DNA from: Spirochaetota bacterium
GTDB taxonomy: Bacteria > Spirochaetota > JAGLSM01 > JAKPMW01
Assembly (NCBI GenBank): GCA_031283155.1
Contig: JAITCI010000030.1
Location: forward strand, 1-63,413
Reading direction: 5' to 3'
Length of the DNA stretch: 63,413 bases
The notes beneath the pieces are model-generated. The model searched no databases, was not told the origin of the DNA, and worked only from the letters and a program-made list of their open reading frames with translations. Made by a program: the position numbers and the translations under genes. How positions within the stretch are numbered: the first letter of the stretch is position 1; every line of letters begins with the position of its first letter. Positions 22,153-25,197 of the stretch are shown piece by piece.

Positions 22153-23577
22153 TCACCTGTGCCCGATCGCGAGAAGCAGGCCAAAAACCGCCTTCGGATT
22201 GGGGGACTGCGCGGAAAATTCTATTGTGTCGAGCGTATACTGCGCCTGGCTGTGCGGAATAAAATTGTGCCCGACGGCTCTGGCCACGCGCGCGGGAAAG
22301 GCGCCCTTCTCATTCGCAAAGCGTGTTTCGATTGCGGCAATATCGAGCGCCTCCTTGGAATAAAGTACCACAAGATAATCCGTGCCGATCTTTTCATCCA
22401 TTCGTATCCATTTGGTTTCGCCGGGCCAGGCGACGGTACTCCCGGAATAATCCATAACCGGCGAGACGCCCTTTGACGGGAAAATATGCGTGACGTCCGG
22501 GGTGGCGCTGTCCGCCGAAAAAGCGTATACGTACGCGGGGTATTTATTGGTCATCAAAAAACGGAAATCGGTTCCGGTTGGATACGACGAGAGGGTGGAA
22601 TAAAAACCCGCCGGATTATAGCGCACCGGCATATTCGCTTTGGACAGGAATATTTCTGTTTTGATGGCAGCGCCGTATTGCGCGGAATTTTTGAAATTGG
22701 AGAGATTTTCTATTATCTCGTAGGCTTCCACAACCCAAACCGCAAAATCCGCGTACCGTATCCAGAAATATCCGCCATCGCCCCAGAAGGTTCCCCAGCT
22801 ATTTTGTACTTCGAATGCGCCGCCGAATTTATCATCATCGTAACCCACAACGCACATCGCGTGCCCGTTCAAATTCCTGTTAAAGCTCTCCTGCGGTATC
22901 CAGACGTCTTTGATTCTGGGTGCCCATGGAAATGGCGACGTGAATGACGGCGGGCAGAGCATAGAGATGATGACCGGTTTACCCTCGGCAATGCTTTTCT
23001 TGACCGGTCTCGCCTTTTCTTCCATAGCTCCGGAACCCCACCGGAGAAACACCCTGACAAAATCCGAGATGGGATACCGCCTGTTCGTCGTGAACAGGCT
23101 CAAAGAAATATCCCTGAAATCGATTTTTTCTTCAACGGGTAATCGCTTTACGATGCCTTCGTGTTTCATCAGGCGCATCGCGGAGTCGATGTATGTTCCG
23201 GAGCGGCACGTCGGATCATTGGATATGCTTTTATACAGAAACGCCGGAGAAAATACATTTTCTGTGATCAGAGTCCGATTGGTACGCCCGAGCGCTATCG
23301 ACTCCAGGATGGTGCGCGCCGCATAGGCGTTCGCCCAGGCATTGCATGTGCCGTATTGCCCCTGGTTGCCCGGGAAAGGGCTGTAGTGTTTCAGCGAGTG
23401 CGCTTTGGGCAAGGTTACATAGTCCCTGGTCAGCAAAACCGGCTTCTGATCGATACTTTCATAGAGATCCGGATCCATAAGCGCGCCCTGTCCATATTCA
23501 TCGGGTTCATCGCCGGAGATAGAGAGAGCTGTCAAAAGCAGAAACGCAATACTGAGGATCCGTATATATGGAGTCAT
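22153..23577 (-). CDS. Secreted C1A papain-like cysteine peptidase with DUF4384-like C-terminus
   Basis: Exported cysteine peptidase of 474 residues. A signal peptide (about 1-22) precedes the papain fold, with catalytic Cys78 in NQGQYGTCNAWANAY, oxyanion Gln72, His239 in NGHAMCVVGYD and Asn259 in VQNSWGTFWGDGGYFWI. There is little room for an inhibitory propeptide, only about 40 residues before the active-site motif. Residues about 300-420 (FRFLMTNKYPAYVYAFSADS, then THIFPSKG) resemble DUF4384, a beta domain often attached to surface or secretion-linked enzymes. It starts 18 bases after the caspase-like gene with a GGAG ribosome site, so the two peptidases are probably made together. Confidence 0.9.
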   Translation of the reverse strand: MTPYIRILSIAFLLLTALSISGDEPDEYGQGALMDPDLYESIDQKPVLLTRDYVTLPKAHSLKHYSPFPGNQGQYGTCNAWANAYAARTILESIALGRTNRTLITENVFSPAFLYKSISNDPTCRSGTYIDSAMRLMKHEGIVKRLPVEEKIDFRDISLSLFTTNRRYPISDFVRVFLRWGSGAMEEKARPVKKSIAEGKPVIISMLCPPSFTSPFPWAPRIKDVWIPQESFNRNLNGHAMCVVGYDDDKFGGAFEVQNSWGTFWGDGGYFWIRYADFAVWVVEAYEIIENLSNFKNSAQYGAAIKTEIFLSKANMPVRYNPAGFYSTLSSYPTGTDFRFLMTNKYPAYVYAFSADSATPDVTHIFPSKGVSPVMDYSGSTVAWPGETKWIRMDEKIGTDYLVVLYSKEALDIAAIETRFANEKGAFPARVARAVGHNFIPHSQAQYTLDTIEFSAQSPNPKAVFGLLLAIGHR

Positions 23578-23595
23578 GCTTTTCTCCGTTTCGGG

Positions 23596-25110
23596 TTATT
23601 CGTCATTCTGCTGTTCGCTGAGTTTTTCGCGGGCTATTCGCAGTGCATCTTTCGTCTCGGGATTTTCCGGCTGGAGACGGACTGCCTCGGCATAATCGGC
23701 TGCGGCTTCGGCGTACGCGGCTCTGTTGAAATGAAGGGTGCCTCTCGTCCGGTAATACTGCGCGTTTTCCGGCGACAACACTATCGCCTGGGTATAATCC
23801 ATCAAGGCATAGGAAAAATATGCACTGCTTCCATACAGCTCATACGCAAGCCCGCGCTCATAATACAACTGCGCGTCGTCCGGCGAAAGGTGTATCGCCT
23901 GGTTGTAATCCGCTATGGCTTCATTGATCATTCGCCCGTTATGATTTGAACTTTTGCTGTATACATTTGCCCTGCTGCTGTACCATTTCGGGTTGCTCGG
24001 ATCCAGGCGTATCGCCTCGGTATAATCTTCGATGGCCTTGCCGGGAATATGCATAACAACAAAGTATAAGCGCCCCCGCAAAGAATACAACTCCGCGTTT
24101 TTCGGCGAAAGGCGTATCGCTTCGCTGTAATCAGCCAAAATCTCCTGCGGATCGGCGTTATACATCAGATTATATGTGCCGCGCGCGATATAGTACGCCG
24201 TGTCCGCCGGCGCCAGCCGCAATGCCTCGTTGATCGCGTTTATGGCTGCGGGAAAATTCTCATTATTCGCATATTCCTGAGACTGGGTAAAATATCTCAG
24301 GGCTTCCGCTTTGGGATCTGCCTGCGAGGCGGGCTTATCGGCATGAGGGCGCGAGCCGAGATAGGCCTCGCCGAAATACTGATAATACACAGCCGGAACC
24401 TGGGCATTCCTGCTCTCGCGCATCACGTCCGCGCCGGTTCGCCGAATAACCTGCTGGAGTTCGAGACCGGGTACCTTCAGGTTCTTCAGAAGCTGGCTTG
24501 TAAAGAGACCGTTCCGCCCTTCGCCGTCCAGAGCCGCCTGCCCCGCCGCAGTCGCGTATACAATGACGCTCCCGGCGGGAACATGATCCACCACCGCAAG
24601 CCCGCGGCTTCCGCTCCGGCTCCAGCCGAAGGGATTATTGCGGCATGAATCGAGAACTATCACATTCAGATCATTCCCGGCCTCTTCCAGCTCAAAAATC
24701 AGGGTCTGCACGGCCATCGCTCGTTCGCGCAGCATACTCTCGCCGGGTATCCTGGCGTCAACCGGAATCAGATAGTTGTTTCCTTTGGATTCTACCGCAT
24801 GACCGGCGTAATAAAAAAAGCCGTAGGAATTTCTGGACGCGATGAGCCTGCGCTTGAGATTGATGACCGCCGTTTCCATTTGCTCCAGGGTGCCGTTTCG
24901 CACAATTTCCACCTGAAAGCCGAGTCCCTTGAGTATTGCCTCCATGTCGCTTGCGTCATTGAGCGGATTCTGCAGCGCCGCGACCCCTGTATAGTCCGCG
25001 TTGCCCACCACAAGCGCAAATTTGAGCGGAGCGGCTTCCTGCGCGGCGGCCGGAAGAGGGAGGAAAAGAGCAATAATGATGTATATTTTTGTGCATAAAC
25101 GAATTGGCAT
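23596..25110 (-). CDS. Secreted caspase-like (C14/metacaspase) peptidase with TPR repeats
   Basis: Exported clan CD cysteine peptidase of 504 residues. The signal peptide ends near PAAAQEAA (about residue 24). The p20-like domain starts KFALVVGNADY; the catalytic dyad is His104 (YYAGHAVE) and Cys156 (VLDSCRNNPF), followed by LFTSQLLKNL. Residues about 275-500 form about six TPRs (for example AINAINEALRLAP, AIEDYTEAIRLDP, AIADYNQAIHLSP). I chose the ATG at 25108-25110 preceded by GGGGGCT; the longer frame adds a non-signal stretch. It is first in a two-peptidase unit with its own promoter-like sequence. Its substrates are unknown; TPRs may recruit partners. Confidence 0.92.
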   Translation of the reverse strand: MPIRLCTKIYIIIALFLPLPAAAQEAAPLKFALVVGNADYTGVAALQNPLNDASDMEAILKGLGFQVEIVRNGTLEQMETAVINLKRRLIASRNSYGFFYYAGHAVESKGNNYLIPVDARIPGESMLRERAMAVQTLIFELEEAGNDLNVIVLDSCRNNPFGWSRSGSRGLAVVDHVPAGSVIVYATAAGQAALDGEGRNGLFTSQLLKNLKVPGLELQQVIRRTGADVMRESRNAQVPAVYYQYFGEAYLGSRPHADKPASQADPKAEALRYFTQSQEYANNENFPAAINAINEALRLAPADTAYYIARGTYNLMYNADPQEILADYSEAIRLSPKNAELYSLRGRLYFVVMHIPGKAIEDYTEAIRLDPSNPKWYSSRANVYSKSSNHNGRMINEAIADYNQAIHLSPDDAQLYYERGLAYELYGSSAYFSYALMDYTQAIVLSPENAQYYRTRGTLHFNRAAYAEAAADYAEAVRLQPENPETKDALRIAREKLSEQQNDE

Positions 25111-25168: not shown

Positions 25169-25197
25169 TTATTATATAGCATATCTTAAAAATTCAA
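25169..25197 (-). promoter_or_regulatory. Promoter-like sequence before the caspase/papain gene pair
   Basis: On the minus strand TTGAAT (25192-25197) is followed after 17 bases by TAATAA (25169-25174); an overlapping perfect TATAAT (25171-25176) has 15-base spacing. The start codon is about 60 bases downstream. This AT-rich patch stands out from its surroundings and separates the peptidase pair from the genes upstream. Confidence 0.55.

Follow-up and report, generated by a model that had tools for sequence, protein, structure and literature searches.

A caspase-like protease and a papain-family DUF4384 peptidase form a conserved pair of neighboring, putatively exported proteins in five bacterial phyla

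RESULTS

Architecture of the gene pair

Two adjacent genes encoding cysteine proteases with signal-peptide-like N termini lie on the minus strand of a 63,413-nucleotide stretch of DNA from a Spirochaetota bacterium (contig JAITCI010000030.1), referred to here as the window. The gene adjoining the caspase gene encodes a papain-like C1 peptidase that carries a DUF4384 domain (C1-DUF4384). The features of the locus are listed below.

22153 to 23577, minus strand: gene for the papain-like C1 peptidase with DUF4384, 474 amino acids, signal-peptide-like start, the constant partner (open reading frame, PF00112, PF14326, AlphaFold2, fold search)
22351 to 22584, minus strand: DUF4384 domain, residues 332 to 409 (PF14326)
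22801 to 22803, minus strand: codon for catalytic Asn259 of the C1 peptidase (80 of 80 sequences)
22861 to 22863, minus strand: codon for catalytic His239 of the C1 peptidase (80 of 80 sequences)
23344 to 23346, minus strand: codon for catalytic Cys78 of the C1 peptidase (79 of 79 aligned)
23413 to 23514, minus strand: short, ordered pro-segment-like stretch of the C1 peptidase, approximately residues 22 to 55, ending in LLTR51DYVT before the papain domain (alignment; pLDDT of about 96 from residue 31 on)
23578 to 23595, no strand: intergenic gap of 18 bp (from the open reading frame positions)
23596 to 25110, minus strand: gene for the caspase-TPR protein (C14 plus TPRs), 504 amino acids, signal-peptide-like start, the variable partner (open reading frame, PF00656, TPR families, nearest solved structure MALT1 paracaspase)
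23641 to 24318, minus strand: TPR array, approximately residues 265 to 490 of the caspase protein, a position held by other modules in other genomes (Pfam TPR models, module tally)
24382 to 25023, minus strand: caspase (p20/p10-like) domain, residues 30 to 243 (PF00656; AlphaFold2)
24643 to 24645, minus strand: codon for catalytic Cys156 of the caspase (G103, H104, D154, and C156 invariant in partner caspases)
24799 to 24801, minus strand: codon for catalytic His104 of the caspase (invariant in 57 of 57 partner caspases)
25042 to 25110, minus strand: signal-peptide-like N terminus of the caspase, approximately residues 1 to 23, ending in LPLPAAA-QE (hydrophobicity heuristic)
25169 to 25197, minus strand: weak promoter-like sequence (TTGAAT, 15-nucleotide spacer, TATAAT), by direct reading and not above shuffled sequences

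The caspase protein matched Peptidase_C14 well above the curated Pfam cut-off (PF00656; E = 3.4e-33; 115.7 bits versus 21.4), and its neighbor matched Peptidase_C1 (PF00112; E = 4.2e-7; 30.7 bits versus 20.7) and, marginally, DUF4384 (PF14326; E = 3e-6; 27.7 bits versus 27). Genome-wide searches returned a single C14 match and a single C1 match, and these were the two genes described here. Open reading frames, called by a simple procedure, agreed with the positions and the 18-bp gap given in a first-pass annotation of this DNA, and the catalytic residues that it had listed (His104/Cys156 and Cys78/His239/Asn259) are present and coincide with the conserved catalytic positions of each family. 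Its assignment of signal peptides to both proteins was borne out to the extent that both N termini are signal-peptide-like by a hydrophobicity heuristic, the measure on which signal peptides were judged throughout. The shared promoter that it had placed at 25169–25197 drew no support above chance, as a sigma-70 scan missed this sequence and sites found in the region did not exceed those in shuffled sequences.

The nearest solved structure to the caspase domain by sequence was the MALT1 paracaspase, and a fold search agreed. The AlphaFold2 model of this protein was confident in the caspase domain only (pLDDT of about 95) and unreliable outside it. Caspase residues Asp52 and Asp154 align with the S1 pocket residues Asp365 and Asp462 of MALT1, giving the acidic S1 residues of a metacaspase/paracaspase-type enzyme; Asp154 lies two residues before Cys156 and is invariant. 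In MALT1, specificity for Arg is set by Asp365, Asp462, and Glu500 (PMC4357240). Since two of these three residues are matched, the caspase is predicted from sequence to prefer a basic P1 residue, with cleavage after Arg or Lys. The model of the C1-DUF4384 protein was confident (mean pLDDT of 93.9) and showed a papain fold, for which the best match was xylellain (PDB 3ois), followed by procathepsins.

The caspase adjoins C1-DUF4384 in diverse bacteria

When 84,980 species genomes were scanned with the C1 alignment, 563 relatives were obtained, and the best 80 of these, which are not a random sample, were taken as loci. They derive from Treponema MAGs and isolates, Bacteroidota, Chlorobiota, Sulfurovum, and Thiotrichaceae, and many of the carriers are gut or sediment bacteria, with a broad spread in free-living and gut species. 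Within this best 80 of 563, a caspase gene directly adjoined the C1-DUF4384 gene in 47 of the 79 usable loci and in 38 of the 56 in which both flanks were intact (at least 1.5 kb each), so that a caspase neighbor was missing for about 30% of the C1-DUF4384 genes whose flanks were intact. Paired loci were distributed over Spirochaetota, Bacteroidota, Chlorobiota, Campylobacterota, and Pseudomonadota, that is, at least four phyla beyond the spirochetes. Caspases made up 48 of 147 genes (33%) at a distance of one gene from C1-DUF4384 and 2 of 349 (0.6%) at a distance of four or more, a 57-fold local enrichment, and gene clustering identified the caspase as the sole broadly recurrent neighbor (54 loci, versus 8 for the next family). 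The genes of a pair were on the same strand in 43 of 48 cases, the window included, with a median same-strand gap of 15 bp.

Adjacency of the caspase and C1-DUF4384 genes is thus widely conserved. The first-pass annotation had proposed looking for the same adjacency in other spirochete genomes, and it was found both there and in other phyla: within the phylum (393 genomes), a caspase gene adjoins the closest C1 relatives in G358, G303, G319, G217, and G387. C1-DUF4384 is mostly single copy in Spirochaetota, where caspases number from 1 to 7 or more per genome.

Several loci differed from the common layout. Several of those scored as caspase negative are truncated; in two of the truncated loci (L090 and L092), the last fragment resembles the FGE portion of a neighboring gene. 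Four caspase-less Treponema loci (L093, L094, L096, and L101) instead carry a convergent gene for a secreted protein, which has a PPC domain where tested and reads as CsgG type. In five loci from Chlorobiota and Bacteroidales (L102, L103, L109, L119, and L138), with or without a caspase neighbor, the C1 gene is followed downstream by genes for a DUF6272/SiaC-domain protein, an Ion_trans_2 protein, and a polyphosphate-kinase-like protein, which suggests a stress-signaling context. In Treponema loci of the T. zioleckii type, an extra gene precedes the pair (L069, 5393–7273; L070, 10682–12013; L071, 11029–12843); this gene, which has SH3_3 and Sel1 matches in two cases, may be a third member.

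A constant peptidase and a caspase with exchangeable modules

The C1-DUF4384 architecture is fixed across loci, and the active-site residues Gln72, Cys78, His239, and Asn259 are kept in every sequence with a residue aligned there (79 to 80 of 80 for the Cys/His/Asn triad). A G-H and a D-x-C motif are invariant across the 57 partner caspases, all of which retain the catalytic dyad, so that the loss of catalytic residues in homologues that the first-pass annotation had named as evidence against a functional pair was seen in neither family. Hydrophobic N termini were present in 74 of 77 C1 proteins and in 49 of 57 caspases, several of the others being truncated at contig ends.

Outside the catalytic domain, the partner caspases carry TPR, FGE-sulfatase/C-type-lectin fold, MORN, Sel1, WG, WD40, and Glucodextran_B or Ig-like modules. 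The role of recruiter that had been proposed for the TPR part is affected accordingly: TPRs do occupy the module position in the window protein, but they are only one among many modules found there in partner caspases. In G303 and G351, the nearest relatives of the window caspase-TPR protein stand apart from the C1 gene, which in G303 has a caspase of different equipment as its partner. A related Treponema genome, G351, also has a cluster of six exported caspase genes spanning about 15 kb (L073, contig C22, 240–15617), with TPR, FGE, or unidentified C-terminal modules; its C1-DUF4384 gene is on another contig.

Rearrangement and history of the pair

In a caspase tree of 48 rows (IQ-TREE), gene order or orientation changed at least seven times with adjacency retained. 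The fully supported six-row clade that includes the window alone contains three arrangements (the caspase gene lying upstream or downstream on the same strand, or divergently). Two deeply separated caspase lineages share this one C1 family as their partner. The pairwise distances of the caspase and C1 proteins were correlated (r = 0.50, versus a maximum of 0.24 in 1,000 permutations), a correlation to which shared ancestry contributes. Adjacency in five phyla, conserved catalytic residues, operon-like spacing, and rearranged order with adjacency kept together strongly support the earlier proposal that the two exported peptidases are functionally paired.

RpoA encoded in the window is 83% identical to that of a congener, G002, and 47 to 49% identical to those of termite-type Treponema families. 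The window C1 protein is 49 to 56% identical to its closest members in these termite-type Treponema families and has no comparable relative in G002, where the genes at the orthologous site run rpoA, rplQ, a stretch that reads as a membrane protein, and then a Helicase_C_3 gene. Because the pair is absent from this site, either this lineage acquired it by transfer or G002 lost it, and transfer appears to be the simpler reading. A similar element, TATGCTATA(AT)AA, precedes the caspase gene (window 25169–25197) and the Helicase_C_3 gene of G002 (L176, contig C380, approximately 860–890); as it is common to both sites, insertion of the pair behind a pre-existing promoter is possible. Plasmid carriage was considered and set aside, since only weak matches (below 33% identity) were obtained.

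DISCUSSION

Our tentative reading, held at slightly less than even confidence, is that the pair constitutes a conserved exported two-protease module in which a variable caspase acts upstream of a constant C1-DUF4384 peptidase in the cell envelope. The caspase module would engage a ligand or client present in the envelope, whereupon the caspase would become active and, given its acidic S1 residues, may cut after Arg or Lys. It could then switch on the C1-DUF4384 peptidase, or prepare substrates for it, and the latter would perform the bulk of the cutting. Such a cascade, leading from a sensor-caspase to a papain-type executioner, is plausible. A stronger form, namely, an apoptosis-like two-step cascade outside the bacterial cytoplasm, with an initiator caspase bearing an exchangeable recognition module and a dedicated papain-family executioner, conserved in at least five phyla, seems to us somewhat unlikely.

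Papain-type enzymes are commonly zymogens. A precedent for trans-activation of a papain-family zymogen by a clan CD protease is legumain acting on Schistosoma cathepsin B (cited in PMC7720491). Together, the zymogen habit and this precedent favor placing the sensor-caspase upstream. The precedent is like the proposed arrangement in that a clan CD enzyme activates a clan CA papain-family zymogen; however, it belongs to a eukaryotic digestive cascade and legumain is an Asn-specific C13 peptidase, so it serves as an analogy only. A basic residue where the pro-segment meets the papain domain (Arg51 of the LLTR motif) is near universal in the C1-DUF4384 family and was considered as the site of activation by the caspase. 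Because 17 of 17 distant C1 peptidases, collected with no regard to caspases, have an Arg in the same stretch, Arg51 provides no support for caspase cleavage, and the order of action is one that we infer. Two Bacteroidota C1 proteins that are paired with second-lineage caspases (L130 and L134) are without a basic residue before the papain domain.

The main rival to a cascade is envelope protein quality control, in which both proteases would act in parallel on misfolded or mislocalized envelope proteins, with the modules as client scaffolds and without mutual activation. In favor of this explanation, the TPR, Sel1, MORN, and WD40 modules are repeats of a generic protein-binding kind, several Treponema have DUF4384 and PPC/CsgG-like envelope proteins near the C1 gene, and the distribution spans free-living and gut bacteria. 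It nevertheless leaves unexplained both the sharp differences in module between close relatives and the lectin-like and Ig-like modules, and we regard it as unlikely. Digestion of dietary or host protein by a secreted pair in gut or sediment habitats would suit the secretion of the proteases and the habitats of many carriers, but it is very improbable, as proteases of the caspase type are specific processing enzymes, neither strict pairing nor module swapping would be expected, and both genes are single copy in this genome. That the genes are neighbors by chance or hitch-hiking, with unrelated functions, is scarcely credible: the C1-DUF4384 genes with intact flanks and no caspase neighbor would accord with it, whereas the local enrichment, the repeated rearrangements with adjacency retained, and the spread over five phyla would not.

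A role in defense or inter-bacterial conflict would make the pair an extracytoplasmic counterpart of cytoplasmic caspase systems, with the module recognizing phage, rival, or self and the proteases destroying envelope targets. The coupling of a constant component to a caspase whose fused domain varies recalls the organization of the EACC1-associated caspase system (PMC7159879), presence is patchy, with the pair absent at the orthologous site of the congener, and FGE/C-type-lectin modules are typical sensors in conflict systems (PMC8195603). Against this, PADLOC gave only a generic weak caspase match to known defense systems, the window caspase scored 42.3 bits with the EACC1 caspase model (NF047832) against a cut-off of 140, and the window loci inspected had no defense-island context. 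A diversity-generating retroelement/FGE sensor system was likewise rejected, since this genome has no RVT_1 match, no reverse transcriptase was found in it or in most paired relatives, and the window caspase has TPRs rather than FGE. We consider a defense role quite improbable.

The resemblance to caspase-centered modular systems is one of layout, and we make no claim of a defense role from it. Like the EACC1-associated system (Kaur et al. 2020), the pair is a two-gene unit in which a constant component accompanies a caspase with many alternative fused domains. The constant component of EACC1, however, is a one-helix membrane domain and that system is located at or inside the membrane, whereas here it is a papain-like peptidase that is itself secreted, and signal-peptide-like N termini are present on both proteins. 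Orthocaspases with WD40, TPR, Sel1, and FGE-sulfatase accessory domains have been cataloged (PMC3501461), and they combine a caspase domain with the same set of modules; that catalog treats them as single proteins, and the passages covered here name no C1-DUF4384 partner. Assignment to the TPR pseudo-orthocaspases, which have a Phe-Ser dyad (PMC6426788), was rejected because the His-Cys dyad of the window caspase is intact. Direct fusions of DUF4384 to caspases are known from cyanobacteria and alphaproteobacteria (PMC6426788, PMC7475262) and support a functional link between the two; there, both share one polypeptide, whereas in the pair DUF4384 resides on a separate papain-like peptidase. A search of a largely open-access literature collection found no paper describing a C14/C1-DUF4384 pair, and the pair is apparently undescribed so far. 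Xylellain and the procathepsins, the best fold matches of the C1-DUF4384 protein, are themselves without DUF4384, and we know of no caspase partner for them.

Bacterial caspases have mostly been discussed as cytoplasmic cell death or defense effectors. The pair is present in cultured species, with Mucilaginibacter flavidus, Pedobacter ginsengisoli, and Flavihumibacter soli among the carriers, and is therefore open to direct testing. If our reading is correct, these genes would be candidates for a two-protease cascade in the bacterial envelope, and a widespread exported branch of caspases with a fixed papain-family partner would give many secreted bacterial caspases, as well as DUF4384, a concrete and testable function.
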